A program made the position numbers and the translations under genes. From Flavisolibacter ginsengisoli DSM 18119 (GTDB lineage: Bacteria; Bacteroidota; Bacteroidia; Chitinophagales; Chitinophagaceae), in assembly GCF_900129295.1 (NCBI RefSeq), contig NZ_FQUU01000006.1:1-64000 (forward strand): DNA of 64,000 bases, read 5' to 3'. Under the pieces are notes generated by a model that worked only from the letters and a program-made list of their open reading frames with translations, had not been told where the DNA came from and did not search any database. Positions 4,192 to 28,558 of this stretch are shown here, in pieces; the first letter of the stretch is position 1, and the number at the start of each line of letters is the position of its first letter.

Positions 4192-5226
4192 TTATACTGG
4201 CTGTTCGATAGTGTTGACACCAGTTGATTGACCAATAACCAGTTTTGCCGGCAGGTGAATTTGAGTGATCTTTTTGGGCCGGGTCATTAATTCAACGAGG
4301 GTTTGAACCGCAACTTTTCCCATTTCATCAAGGGGCTGACGGATATGTGTAAGCGTGGCATAAAACAGGTCAGTAGCATCTGACTGGTCAAAACTCAGGA
4401 TCTTAAGGTCATTCGGCACTTTTAAACCCAGCCTGTTGATATACTTCAAGCCGAGGGTTGAAACTTTGTTACTTGCAAAAAACAGGGCATCAATGGGTTC
4501 GGGCAATGCAAGTAAAGCCTTAATAGCTTCCTTAACCTCTTCTGCAGAAGTATCAATAGGAACTTCTTTTATCCAGCTTTTGCTGACCGTTATACCATTC
4601 TTTTTTAAAGCGGACTGGTAGCCCTTTTTACGGTCCTGCAAATGGGATAAGGTAGTTTTAAATCCGATGAAGCCGATCCTGCGGCAACCAGCCATCACCA
4701 GGTGTTCCACGCCTGTAAAGGAAGCTTCGGTATTATTTACTGCCACGTAATTCACCTTCAGACCCGGGAAGTAACGGTCGATCAATACAAATGGAACTTT
4801 GCTTTTTTGCAGGTATTCAATCAGCGGCTGGTCATTTGCAGCAGGGGCAAAGATGATCCCATCCACTTGCCGGTCCAGCATTACGTTAATGATCCTTTTG
4901 GAACGTTCTTCCTTTTCATCTGAACTGCCGACAATGACTGTGTAATTGTTTTTCTCTGCTTCATCCTCTATAATGCGGGCAATAGTGGAAGAAAAAGGAT
5001 TGGCGATATCGGCAACTACCAGTCCAATAGTATTGGTTTTATTTGTCTTCAGGCTTTTAGCTATCTGGTTAGGACGATAATTCAACTTCTGCGCCGTATC
5101 CCTGATCTTCTTTGATATTTCTTCACTGATCCTGCCTTGCTTTTTATTATTCAATACATAGGAAACCAATGCAATGGAAACGCCTACCTTCTGGGCTATA
5201 TCTTTTAATGATACCTTTTTCTTCAT
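4192..5226 (-). CDS. LacI/GalR-family transcriptional regulator
   Basis: This 344-residue protein starts at ATG 5224-5226; an upstream TTG in frame is less likely. Residues about 5-60 form the LacI helix-turn-helix (VSLKDIAQKVGVSIALVSYVL) with the hinge sequence YRPNQIAKSL. The rest is a periplasmic-binding-protein-like effector domain (NTIGLVVADIANPF, DGIIFAP, PNDLKILSFDQSD). It is transcribed away from a perfect palindrome at 5321-5344 and from a second copy at 6276-6293; both have the central CG expected of LacI operators. Its obvious targets are a candidate small RNA and a 60-residue protein, not a sugar-utilisation operon, which is unusual for this family. The effector is unknown. Autoregulation through the nearby operator is likely but inferred. 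Confidence 0.92.
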   Translation of the reverse strand: MKKKVSLKDIAQKVGVSIALVSYVLNNKKQGRISEEISKKIRDTAQKLNYRPNQIAKSLKTNKTNTIGLVVADIANPFSSTIARIIEDEAEKNNYTVIVGSSDEKEERSKRIINVMLDRQVDGIIFAPAANDQPLIEYLQKSKVPFVLIDRYFPGLKVNYVAVNNTEASFTGVEHLVMAGCRRIGFIGFKTTLSHLQDRKKGYQSALKKNGITVSKSWIKEVPIDTSAEEVKEAIKALLALPEPIDALFFASNKVSTLGLKYINRLGLKVPNDLKILSFDQSDATDLFYATLTHIRQPLDEMGKVAVQTLVELMTRPKKITQIHLPAKLVIGQSTGVNTIEQPV

Positions 5227-5320
5227 AAATGGCAATAAACAGGAACAAGTTAATCATACCTGATTAATGAAAAGTAATAAATAATGGCAATTTGTTAAAA
5301 TTTCAGCAGTTTACCTATTT

Positions 5321-5344
5321 TTTTGTTTAAACGTTTAAACAAAA
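5321..5344. promoter_or_regulatory. Perfect palindromic LacI-type operator, copy 1
   Basis: A perfect 24-bp palindrome has the core GTTTAAACGTTTAAAC (5325-5340) and four T/A flanks on each side. It lies 94 bp upstream of the divergent lacI-type start codon and immediately upstream of a TAnnTTTG element, overlapping the expected -33 region. An identical 16-bp core recurs at 6277-6292. A protein bound here would most simply block RNA polymerase, but activation is not excluded. Confidence 0.85.
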
Positions 5345-5362
5345 CTACTACATTTGTGTCGT
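5345..5362 (+). promoter_or_regulatory. Bacteroidota-type promoter -7 element for the candidate small RNA
   Basis: TACATTTG at 5349-5356 fits the TAnnTTTG consensus exactly. A TTTG at 5322-5325, inside the operator, is the only -33 candidate; the 23-nt spacing is a little longer than the usual 19-21. Transcription would start near 5362. Confidence 0.6.
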
Positions 5363-5483
5363 CTTAGTGCATGATCAGATAGAAAAGGATCGCAAAGCAC
5401 TAAAATCGCAAACACGATATTTCAACTCTTCATATAGCAAGCAATCGTTAGTCGTCCGTTGTTTCTACAACGGACTTTTTTTT
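5363..5483 (+). ncRNA. Candidate operator-controlled small RNA, about 120 nt
   Basis: The region is bounded by the TACATTTG element and by a strong terminator at 5454-5483. It contains no usable ORF: the only ATG opens a three-codon frame. It can form a stem TTAGTGC (5364-5370) with GCACTAA (5397-5403), a small ATCG/CGAT hairpin (5405-5418), and the terminator stem. An independent promoter for the next gene lies at 5613-5643, so this is more likely a separate transcript than a leader, though attenuation of the downstream gene is possible. The call rests on sequence features only. Confidence 0.55.
5454..5483 (+). terminator. Intrinsic terminator of the candidate small RNA
   Basis: A perfect 9-bp stem GTCCGTTGT (5454-5462) / ACAACGGAC (5467-5475) with a TTCT loop is followed directly by eight T. 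Confidence 0.9.
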
Positions 5484-5612
5484 GTTTGAAGCCTTAACAA
5501 TACGGTAATATAGCATTGGAAATAATAAGAAACATCGGCTACAAACAGCCACCATGGCTGATTTTAAAGATCCATATAAAGTTTGCGATCATAGATGTGC
5601 CATAAATTGGTG

Positions 5613-5643
5613 TTGCAACAGCTATTATTTGCAACTAAGTTTG
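5613..5643 (+). promoter_or_regulatory. Promoter of the secreted protein gene at 5744
   Basis: TTG at 5613-5615 and TAAGTTTG at 5636-5643 are separated by 20 nt, a very good fit to the Bacteroidota TTTG / TAnnTTTG promoter. The implied leader is about 95 nt long. No palindromic operator overlaps it, so the gene may be outside LacI-type control. Confidence 0.65.
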
Positions 5644-5743
5644 CATAACGAAAAACCTGAACCACCCGGTTCCTAATAATTGCCTGCTCCTACCGATTGC
5701 TTTTCATGAACAATTATTTTTTTATTAATTAAACATTTCAAAT

Positions 5744-6154
5744 ATGAAAACGCAAACAAAGAATCCAATGAGAACAATCGCAACAAGTATTTTATTTTTC
5801 CTGGTTATATTGGTTAGTGGAACAAGTGCTATGGCGCACGACGTCACAGGAAATCAAAAGCCAGGCATCAACTACCTTGGAAAAAGTGAAGGACAACACG
5901 TTGTGCAGGTAAATTTTGAAAATGCCAACAGCCAGCCATGGGCTTTATCTGTTCAGGATGCAGATGGAAATATATTGTATACTACCAAATTCAATGAGCA
6001 AAACTTCTCAAAGAAATTCCAGGTAGCCCAGGGTGATGCTCCAGATGTTAAATTGACATTTGTTTTCACTTCCGGCAAGACCAGGCATACACAAACCCTG
6101 GAGATCAACACATCCAGCTATACTGTTGAAGATGTAACAGTTACCAAACTTTAA
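5744..6154 (+). CDS. Small secreted protein of unknown function
   Basis: A 136-residue protein. After a short basic N-terminus (MKTQTKNPMRT) it has a hydrophobic signal segment (IATSILFFLVILVSGTSAMA), with likely cleavage after AMA. The mature part of about 105 residues alternates polar and hydrophobic residues in a beta-rich pattern (HVVQVNFENANSQPWALSV, then ILYTTKFNEQNFSKKF, then VKLTFVFTSGKTRHTQTLE). This suggests a single beta-sandwich, perhaps binding a ligand or another envelope protein. I do not recognise a named family. It sits between the two LacI-type operators, which makes a functional tie plausible, but it has its own promoter. Exported location is confident; role is not. Confidence 0.7.
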   Translation: MKTQTKNPMRTIATSILFFLVILVSGTSAMAHDVTGNQKPGINYLGKSEGQHVVQVNFENANSQPWALSVQDADGNILYTTKFNEQNFSKKFQVAQGDAPDVKLTFVFTSGKTRHTQTLEINTSSYTVEDVTVTKL

Positions 6155-6162
6155 ATTGATTG

Positions 6163-6235
6163 ACATTAACAAGGTAAGGTGTAAGGAGCCGTTTGCTTTG
6201 ACATGGGCACCTTATTCACCTGATCTTGTTGATGT
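6163..6235 (+). other. Long imperfect hairpin downstream of the secreted protein gene
   Basis: ACATTAACAAG (6163-6173) pairs with CTTGTTGATGT (6225-6235), 11 bp with one G-T wobble. Inside it AAGGTG (6176-6181) pairs with CACCTT (6208-6213). No T run follows, so it is not a classical terminator. It may protect the 3' end of the upstream mRNA. Confidence 0.4.
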
Positions 6236-6275
6236 TTGATTCCAGACAAGTCAAAATTGTTAAAGTCGGGCAATG

Positions 6276-6293
6276 TGTTTAAACGTTTAAACA
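6276..6293. promoter_or_regulatory. Perfect palindromic LacI-type operator, copy 2
   Basis: The 16-bp core GTTTAAACGTTTAAAC (6277-6292) is identical to copy 1, with one more matching base on each side. It lies the same distance (24-25 nt from its first base) upstream of a TAnnTTTG element, so both promoters have the same architecture. Confidence 0.82.
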
Positions 6294-6301
6294 GATGGCC
6301 C

Positions 6302-6309
6302 TACTTTTG
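6302..6309 (+). promoter_or_regulatory. Promoter -7 element for the 60-residue microprotein
   Basis: TACTTTTG matches TAnnTTTG. The start of transcription would be near 6315. The leader of about 50 nt contains a small hairpin, CGGCT (6325-6329) / AGCCG (6334-6338). The operator core covers the -33 region. Confidence 0.6.
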
Positions 6310-6367
6310 CACTTCCAAAGAAAGCGGCTTTCCAGCCGGCAATCTTAAAGTATTAAAATATAGAAAC

Positions 6368-6550
6368 ATGAAAAACACGACCACTCAAGACCAGGAAAAA
6401 AGATATGTAAAGATCAGGGCCCAAAAAGAGGAAACGGCTATACCTGCAAGCAATAAAAATACAAACGAGGAAGCAGCCCATTATGCAATGCATCCTCTTC
6501 AATATTGGGCCAGTCCAAATTTCTTTTTGGCACCCTTAAGGAAAAAATAA
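6368..6550 (+). CDS. 60-residue microprotein under the second LacI-type operator
   Basis: The ATG at 6368 opens 60 codons. The earlier in-frame start at 6236 is rejected because it would place the operator and promoter inside the gene. The product is hydrophilic and charged (QDQEKRYVKIRAQKEE) up to about residue 40, with an aromatic C-terminal segment HPLQYWASPNFFLAPLRKK. There is no signal peptide and no Cys. A strong terminator follows at 6605-6627, so the gene is monocistronic. I do not recognise the family. The operator, the promoter at the right distance and the terminator make expression likely, but coding needs confirmation; the transcript could also act as RNA. Confidence 0.6.
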   Translation: MKNTTTQDQEKRYVKIRAQKEETAIPASNKNTNEEAAHYAMHPLQYWASPNFFLAPLRKK

Positions 6551-6604
6551 AGTACCCCTTTATTTCTATTGCATTACCAATAGAACACATGAAAGCACAG
6601 ATTA

Positions 6605-6627
6605 CCCCGGTATTATACCGGGGTTTT
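6605..6627 (+). terminator. Intrinsic terminator after the microprotein gene
   Basis: CCCCGGTA (6605-6612), TTA loop, TACCGGGG (6616-6623), then TTTT. Confidence 0.85.
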
Positions 6628-10868: not shown

Positions 10869-10874
10869 AAAAAT

Positions 10875-11276
10875 ACTGCAAGCCTGTAAGCCGGTTTCTG
10901 TACTTTAATGCGAACATCAAAGCTGCTATCATTTATCTGCTTCCTGTATTGCTACAGGAATGTATCTGCCTACCCACCCAACATCGGGCGAGCAGCCCTC
11001 AGGCGTTGGTATACATGGCATTTCAGCACGCAAGGTTTACCCCCTCTTATTATTACTAATAACAGTTGTGGGCTTTTACCCCACATTTTCACCCTTACCA
11101 GTTTGATGAAAACATCTAACTGGCGGTTATTTTCTGTGGCACTGTCTCGTCCCGGAAACCCGGGAGCCGGCTGTTAACCGGTACGTTGCTCTGCGCTGTC
11201 CGGACTTTCCTACCCTAACAACCCTAATTCACCGTAAGGTGAAAAGAGTATCAGGATCGATAGCATAGCTTGCAGT
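10875..11276 (-). ncRNA. rnpB: RNase P RNA (class A)
   Basis: On the minus strand the P4-region sequence GGAAAGTCCGGACAGCGCAG is followed by AGAGCAACGTACCGG, and later GACGAGACAGTGCCACAGAA and GGTAAGGGTGAAAA. The 3' end carries ACCGGCTTACAGGCTTGCAG. The P1 helix pairs ACTGCAAGC (5' end, 11268-11276) with GCTTGCAGT (3' end, 10875-10883), which fixes both ends to within a few bases. Length about 402 nt, normal for type A. ORFs predicted through this stretch are spurious. It cleaves the 5' leader from pre-tRNAs. Confidence 0.96.
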
Positions 11277-28001: not shown

Positions 28002-28445
28002 ATGACACTAGTAAGATTACATAGCAAACCAGGATTCACAGGCTTTAACAATTTAATGGACGGCCTTTCTTCTCCTTTATCGTCTTTATACAAACAGGAT
28101 TTTGTTTCAAGTGCAAATCAAAAAACGCCGGTTAACATTAAGGAAACAGAAACCTGGTATGAAATGGAGCTTATAGCCCCGGGATTTGAAAAACAGGATT
28201 TTAAAATTAAACTGGATAAAAATATCCTTTCTGTTTCTGCCGAAAAGAATGCGGCCCCTGAAACAAATACTGAAAAATATATCAGGAAGGAGTATACGAA
28301 CCAGTCTTTTGAACGCTCTTTTACAGTTGAAGAAACTATAGATGCTGATAACATAGCAGCAAAATATGTTAATGGTGTTTTGCTTTTAAACTTACCCAAA
28401 AAGGCTATAGTCAAAGAAGAAGTAAAACAAATAAATATTCAATAA
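28002..28445 (+). CDS. Hsp20/alpha-crystallin small heat shock protein
   Basis: 147 residues. A variable N-terminus (residues 1-45) is followed by an alpha-crystallin domain: VNIKETETWYEMELIAPGFEKQDFKIKLDKNILSVSAE (beta strands 2-6) and the closing AKYVNGVLLLNLPK (A.Y.NGVL...P motif). ATP-independent holdase that binds unfolding proteins. Monocistronic with its own terminator 45 nt downstream. No HrcA-type CIRCE element seen upstream. Confidence 0.93.
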   Translation: MTLVRLHSKPGFTGFNNLMDGLSSPLSSLYKQDFVSSANQKTPVNIKETETWYEMELIAPGFEKQDFKIKLDKNILSVSAEKNAAPETNTEKYIRKEYTNQSFERSFTVEETIDADNIAAKYVNGVLLLNLPKKAIVKEEVKQINIQ

Positions 28446-28489
28446 AACAATTAAATATTTTTCTCATAAGCAGTTGGTTTTGGTTTACG

Positions 28490-28519
28490 CCCTCCGTTTC
28501 CACGGAGGGTTTTCTTTTA
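28490..28519 (+). terminator. Terminator of the hsp20 gene
   Basis: CCCTCCGT (28490-28497), TTCC loop, ACGGAGGG (28502-28509), then TTTTCTTTT. Confidence 0.85.
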
Positions 28520-28558
28520 TTGTTTAATATTGCAAGCCTTAAACAGATTCGTAGCGAC

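Follow-up and report, generated by a model that had tools for sequence, protein, structure and literature searches.

To our knowledge, post-transcriptional control in the Bacteroidota is known mainly from Bacteroides. The closest described systems are two Bacteroides small RNAs (sRNAs), FopS (RF04319) and GibS; FopS represses translation at start codons, and its occurrence in a phage has been reported (PMC11697453). The consensus seed of FopS includes UUUUUCAU, and its partner is the RRM protein RbpB. Spot 42 and SgrS, which are sugar-responsive sRNAs under carbon-source regulators, provide a second point of reference. Here we analyze a stretch of 64,000 nucleotides from Flavisolibacter ginsengisoli DSM 18119 (contig NZ_FQUU01000006.1, positions 1 to 64,000; hereafter the window), in which a LacI-family regulator gene is accompanied by two identical palindromic operators, one ahead of a candidate sRNA gene and the other ahead of a unit containing a 60-residue open reading frame (ORF). 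We propose that a LacI-type repressor, acting through these two operators, switches one copy of an sRNA family with the predicted character of a start-codon blocker, together with a small orphan protein, and we assign this reading a probability of about one-half. The LacI circuit, first suggested in an initial annotation of this DNA, is plausible and apparently specific to the lineage; the real interest of the locus lies in the RNA family.

The regulator and its paired operators

The regulator carries an N-terminal LacI helix-turn-helix and a periplasmic-binding-protein-like ligand domain, as judged by Pfam profiles (PF00356, 49.9 bits with a cut-off of 27, E = 2.7e-13; PF13377, 110.7 bits with a cut-off of 26.5, E = 1e-31), confirming the LacI-family assignment of the initial annotation. 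No named NCBIfam equivalog (RbsR, CcpA, PurR, and others) reached its cut-off, the top model being that of RbsR with 207.6 bits against the 382 required. The 16-bp palindrome GTTTAAACGTTTAAAC, which the annotation had placed twice beside this gene, is exact at both positions (Table 1). The 4,676,225-base genome contains no further exact copy, and 0.004 would be expected from the base composition of a 1.26-Mb sample; there was no scatter of unrelated exact copies. When two mismatches were allowed, six places were found across the genome versus seven for a reversed-pattern control, and the mismatched copies therefore look like chance.

The sequence TAnnTTTG is the −7 element of Bacteroidota promoters. 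Such a box begins 8 nt downstream of the first palindrome and 9 nt downstream of the second, in agreement with the equal spacing that had been reported. A TTTG at 5322-5325, a possible −33 element, is present before the first palindrome only. Given the family of the regulator and this anatomy, the LacI-type protein would bind both operators, each lying shortly before a −7 box, and repress both units, and a sugar-like ligand would release it. A sugar-type signal would thus add, from the first unit, a further copy of a start-codon blocker that the genome also has elsewhere, and the second unit would yield the small orphan protein.

A multicopy sRNA family of the Chitinophagaceae

The first unit scored as non-coding in all six frames, and the predicted RNA folds with a z-score of −3.36, its seed unpaired in the predicted centroid; no Rfam family matched it. 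The outputs named in the initial annotation, a non-coding transcript and a 60-residue protein, were upheld as far as a terminated non-coding unit and a gene-like ORF are concerned, but the RNA turned out to be one copy of a paralogous family and the microprotein an orphan. The multicopy part of the RNA, and the core of this family, is its 3′ portion, UUCAUAU(A/G)GCAAGCAAUCGUUAG followed by a terminator. When the leader DNA was used as a query, 29 of 58 genomes were matched, mostly (among the matches listed) in this 3′ part but in three genomes (G018, G028, and G033; such labels are those of our genome, contig, and locus sets) in other parts of the RNA only. In an alignment of 20 copies the core is nearly invariant, in part a selection effect because the core itself served to gather the copies, and the terminator stem covaries: four pairs are changed on both sides, a number reached by 6 of 500 shuffles, and none of the 500 matched either the number of doubly changed cells or the covariation score.

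A covariance model built on the family (threshold E = 0.001) gave hits in 46 of 98 genomes, including the one under study, and these 46 were all among the 59 genomes of the Chitinophagaceae set, whereas the 39 genomes taken from the order's other families gave none. In a sample of the phylum, 11 of 296 genomes were positive, including two marginal cases from outside the Chitinophagaceae. An exact-core scan of GTDB contigs returned at least 118 stretches, and among the 80 matches listed of these the informative titles were mostly those of Chitinophagaceae, with a few others such as Flavobacterium MAG17 and Sphingobacteriales. Model counts are upper bounds on seed-bearing members, because four of the eight hits in the genome under study lack the seed (C22:28460, C6, C20, and C10); the largest count in one relative, 25, may likewise include seedless hits, and G011, whose best model E value is only 1.1e-6, may be a seedless case among the 46 positives. 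The four seed-bearing copies that remain, of which the first unit would be one, share a single-stranded seed and a terminator, as FopS-like multicopy sRNAs do.

Promoter-type boxes are enriched ahead of the core: in the bins from −140 to −70 relative to the core, 171 distinct members contain 56 TAnnTTTG boxes versus 7.7 in block shuffles. Tandem arrays of three to four copies, spaced by ~340-800 nt, occur at L168, L099, and L087. The sRNAs of six member loci had no Rfam match at the gathering score (one TPP riboswitch lies elsewhere in L103), and no paper on this RNA family was found among the literature matches listed. The family is large and apparently undescribed until now.

Predicted targets of the seed

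The core looks like an antisense sequence directed at translation starts (UUUCAU opposite AUGAAA), its UUCAUAU being complementary to starts of the form AUAUGAA. The sRNA would most likely pair across start codons and block initiation, with arginase as the best candidate target. Among 981 start regions, drawn from about 27% of the genome under study, arginase ranked first for the 28-nt window seed at −26.0 kcal/mol; the best gene for each of 60 shuffled seeds averaged −18.4 kcal/mol, and none reached the arginase value. With the 38-nt cores of two siblings, arginase was first and second. When 1268 start regions from other loci were pooled, the top three were arginases, one of them that of the genome under study, although this pool includes 30 arginase loci fetched for that test (32 less G062 and G066, for which there was no locus; the start region used for G065 is displaced by one codon). 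Pairing energies averaged −15.8 for the 18 arginases from sRNA-positive genomes, versus −10.7 for the 12 from sRNA-negative genomes and −9.7 for 319 pooled ATGAA starts, the arginases themselves included. The arginases of different species match two different parts of the seed: AACGATTGC precedes the arginase ATG in G010, G012, G015, and G016, while GCTATATGAAG is matched in G002, G006, and G014, with a variant in G019.

Several results weigh against this pairing. For the whole 91-nt RNA, arginase was absent from the 12 best targets shown, and the mean duplex energy over all starts was no better than that of shuffled RNAs. The arginases of some sRNA-positive genomes pair weakly (G026, −5.5; G005, −10.3; G008, −11.3; G032, −11.6), and that of sRNA-negative G022 scores −16.1; moreover, the genomes are not independent in this comparison because their leaders are partly homologous. 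In a first k-mer test, TATGAAA-type words alone stood out generally, and ATGAAA is a common start in any case; the A-variant 8-mer TGCTATAT was also flagged, 7 against 0. Finally, 11 of 29 sRNA-positive genomes have no arginase match at E = 1e-50, so arginase is no general target. On balance, arginase is probably the best candidate target in this genome, not across the family.

The start of lacI is itself a predicted target in G006, G014, G009, and G055, where it falls in the top 0.3-1.3% of the 1268 starts. The lacI start of the window lies at a moderate 4.1 percentile, and those of G005, G034, and G024 are not targets (G023 and G019 were dropped, as no start was located).

Genomic neighborhoods and copies on viral contigs

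With a simple ORF call, 178 of 188 distinct sites of the family are intergenic and 10 lie inside an ORF. Two neighborhoods recur. The first comprises 67 sites, spread over 50 loci, at which the sRNA diverges from a gene for a protein of ~517 aa; in the second, 26 loci have the sRNA divergent from a small ECF-sigma-like gene, a label based on two proteins tested, for which Sigma70_r2 was just at cut-off. One type of gene, which we take to encode prephenate dehydratase, is next downstream in 16 loci, 13 of them belonging to the 26 ECF-sigma-like loci. The seed-bearing copies of the genome under study comprise one at each of these two addresses (C12 and C35), one standing alone (C17), and that linked to lacI. 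At L106, L138, L142, L146, L179, L186, L189, and L203, the sRNA is followed in the same orientation by an asparaginase-like gene (one tested, PF00710).

The ~517-aa protein is predicted to be all-helical and TPR-like (mean pLDDT 85.6). It had no Pfam family above cut-off and no recognized RNA-binding domain, and the Foldseek matches, low in TM-score and to helical-repeat proteins of a general kind, gave it no more specific identity. Relatives sharing at least 50% identity, some of them in pieces, were found in 44 of 46 sRNA-positive but in none of 13 sRNA-negative genomes of the family, in a comparison uncorrected for kinship; the two sRNA-positive genomes without one are G011 and G028, whose completeness is 62% and 72%, and three of the 13 sRNA-negative genomes have a relative at 42-44%. 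This co-occurrence, together with the divergent gene arrangement, could mean that the sRNAs are CsrB-like decoys, in which a repeated GGCAAGCAAUCGUUAGAGG motif sequesters a protein, perhaps this TPR-like one. With up to 5 mismatches allowed, 40 of 171 members carry the motif once more upstream of the core, where shuffles average 0.25 with a maximum of 2. We nonetheless regard the decoy explanation as unlikely: the extra copy went undetected in the other 131 members, no RNA-binding domain is recognized in the protein, and the co-occurrence may merely follow phylogeny.

Core and hairpin are also carried by twelve IMG/VR contigs (L220-L231), two of which share the same sequence at the core. None of these contigs has a host neighbor gene by tblastn; PHROGs families were matched by 5 of 10 proteins tested from them, and tRNA genes were called on six of the twelve pieces, in two cases directly before the core (L223 and L228). 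Cultured phages and plasmids gave just partial, chance-level core matches, with E values of 3 or more. Dispersal of this kind, the viral copies behind tRNA genes, the existence of a second, similar 3′ module (described below), and copies that lie directly 3′ of an MFS transporter gene on the same strand in G006 and G007 would all suit a transcription-end cassette or mobile repeat that spreads across genomes and viruses and has no trans-acting function. Termination, however, would not require the stretch 5′ of the hairpin, which is strongly conserved (partly by construction), and such a cassette leaves the upstream promoter boxes, the stable gene neighborhoods, and the arginase pairing in some genomes unaccounted for; we consider it rather unlikely, and retain a start-codon-blocking sRNA as the preferred reading of the family.

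The lacI locus in relatives

Orthologues of the regulator, 48-66% identical to it, occur in four genomes of the same genus (G006, G014, G009, and G005, the first three at 64-66%) and in one of another genus (G055). A copy of the operator motif with 0-2 mismatches accompanies the orthologue in all five, so the motif appears to travel with the regulator, as expected of a LacI/GalR operator. Sites with 1-3 mismatches are found with the more distant regulators of G034, G023, and G019, which, as we read the sequence, presumably sit in L-fucose-type clusters. The outputs in these relatives look conventional. In all five loci that have a conserved 95-118-aa gene beside the lacI orthologue, the motif is directly upstream of that gene, whose product resembles the N-terminal part of a Gfo/Idh Rossmann domain (the G005 protein is below the Pfam cut-off); four of these loci also have a neighboring MFS transporter gene. 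One such conserved stand-alone half-Rossmann protein of ~97 aa, adjoining a lacI orthologue, is encoded at L057:7959-8252, with relatives in L058, L059, L060, and L065.

The initial annotation had described a regulator with an operator pair and two downstream units, and had looked to relatives for conservation of the pair. The anatomy is supported, but in relatives the site fronts the half-Rossmann gene instead, and the pair is not conserved, an outcome that the annotation itself had named as refuting: among 394 family genomes, operator plus sRNA core was detected in one, that of the window, so that evolution lends the circuit we propose no support. Likewise, among 171 members of the RNA family, the window copy is the only one with an operator-like site within 250 nt upstream. 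The combination of operator and sRNA is thus apparently a lineage-specific wiring.

These comparisons would also fit an ordinary local LacI circuit in decay, in which the regulator lost an ancestral transporter operon and was left with the sRNA and small ORF as accidental or vestigial outputs. The operator is kept beside the half-Rossmann gene in relatives, mostly with an MFS gene, while the MFS orthologue of the genome under study (62% identical to that of G006) lies on another contig, where the 18 kb viewed contain one 3-mismatch site ~4 kb away and no sRNA core; the uniqueness of the arrangement and the orphan status of the ORF point the same way. However, a pair of perfect palindromes, identical in sequence and in their placement within the two promoters, would be unlikely to survive such decay, and we judge this explanation very unlikely.

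Other observations concern how single copies come under control. The MFS gene followed by an sRNA copy in G006 is part of the operator-bearing lacI locus, and the link between regulator and RNA family may be older in that genome. Among 63 member promoters with a recognizable box, two have a palindrome with arms of at least 10: that of the window and that of G009:C6. The promoter of the latter copy (L240:5380) bears, in the corresponding position, a perfect 20-bp palindrome of another sequence, AAAGTTGTTGCAACAACTTT, and this copy adjoins a cluster in which UreD was identified by Pfam and whose remaining genes we take to be urease genes. The G009 copy and the MFS-linked copies of G006 and G007 suggest that single sRNA copies acquire different inputs.

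At its broadest, the proposal would be that the UUUCAUAUR-containing core and its terminator form a start-codon-blocking module shared by Chitinophagaceae and their viruses, borne on stand-alone sRNAs, mRNA 3′ ends, and viral tRNA regions, with a TPR-like partner, control of arginine breakdown through arginase in part of the family, copies placed under different transcription factors (LacI here), and, in some relatives, the lacI start as a target, which would make a mutual-repression switch. As a whole, this extension is distinctly doubtful.

The second unit and other features of the window

The 60-aa ORF looks coding, yet orphan. Its codon score of 0.146 is typical of genes (5-95% range of real genes, 0.00 to 0.20; 95% of off-frame scores below 0.05), although one antisense frame also scores 0.110. 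No convincing homologue was found in 393 other family genomes, viral contigs, Pfam, or NCBIfam. Three weak matches were taken as chance, two having stops in the aligned frame and the third not being recovered by tblastn, and none of their loci has an operator-like site. A FopS match at 6314-6378 on the minus strand, opposite the start of this ORF, does not represent an sRNA: its score falls short of the threshold (32.5 of 56 bits), and it arises because the ORF begins with ATGAAAAACAC, the complement of the FopS seed. Nor is the ORF start a target of the window sRNA, ranking at index 758 of 982.

The 136-aa protein encoded between the two units probably stands outside the circuit. The sole Rfam match at gathering level across the whole window is RNase P RNA class A (10871-11276, minus strand). 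A second conserved 3′-end module, TTTTCTCATAAGCAGTTRGTTTTGGTT plus a terminator, lies at 28457-28521 on the plus strand, just after an ORF (28002-28445) that we take to be Hsp20-like. Similar copies are present in the same genome (G000, contigs C6 and C20), at L059 and L100, and on viral contig L231, which bears the main sRNA core as well, and a hybrid-looking copy occurs at G000:C10.

Table 1. Positions of the regulator, its operators, and the associated units within the window
Feature	Position	Strand	Basis or remarks
LacI-family regulator gene	4192..5226	-	344 aa; PF00356, PF13377, and PF00532 matches; likely start ATG at 5226
Operator 1	5321..5344	.	16-bp palindrome 5325-5340 inside a perfect 24-bp palindrome; upstream of the sRNA −7 box
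−7-like box of sRNA, TACATTTG	5349..5356	+	Sequence; 8 nt after operator 1 palindrome
Small RNA, ~122 nt, predicted ends	5362..5483	+	Fold, non-coding score, family membership
Conserved family core/seed, CTCTTCATATAGCAAGCAATCGTTAG	5426..5451	+	Conservation; predicted to pair at the arginase start
Intrinsic terminator with GTTTCTAC loop region	5454..5483	+	Hairpin 5454-5475, then T8; stem covaries in 20-member alignment
136-aa secreted-looking protein	5744..6154	+	Lies between units 1 and 2; matched no family above cut-off; coding-like codon score
Operator 2	6277..6292	.	16-bp palindrome identical to operator 1
−7-like box of second unit, TACTTTTG	6302..6309	+	Sequence; 9 nt after operator 2 palindrome
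60-aa ORF	6368..6550	+	Orphan; gene-typical codon usage
Terminator-like hairpin of second unit	6604..6624	+	Follows the 60-aa ORF

Comparison with known systems

In its domain architecture and in the palindromic operator at promoters, the regulator resembles LacI/GalR repressors; it departs from their norm in that the units concerned are an sRNA gene and a 60-aa orphan, not transport or catabolic genes. With Spot 42 and SgrS the window sRNA would share control by a carbon-source regulator, while the type of regulator, the RNA family, and the candidate target are unrelated. The decoy RNAs CsrB and RsmY likewise have a short repeated motif, which is found in part of the present family, but differ in that the core here resembles an antisense seed.

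A searchable sRNA family of the Chitinophagaceae is now defined, along with a putative partner protein and target, viral copies, and one copy beside a sugar-type operator. The FopS covariance model (RF04319) found no match on the sRNA strand at its gathering score. The two families nonetheless have in common that they are multicopy in Bacteroidota, with a UUUUCAU-containing single-stranded seed followed by a terminator, that this seed is directed at start-codon regions (in the Chitinophagaceae by predicted pairing only), that copies are reported from a phage or lie on viral contigs, and that, as for FopS and GibS, the promoters are canonical for Bacteroidota, GibS having a promoter motif of its own (PMC11697453). 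They differ in the sequence past UUUUCAU, in the Chitinophagaceae hosts, in the placement of the core near the 3′ end behind a variable 5′ part, and in the extra motif copy of some members. If the predicted pairing holds true, the phylum would have two unlike multicopy families of start-codon-blocking sRNAs, and a route by which such RNAs gain new signals would be visible.

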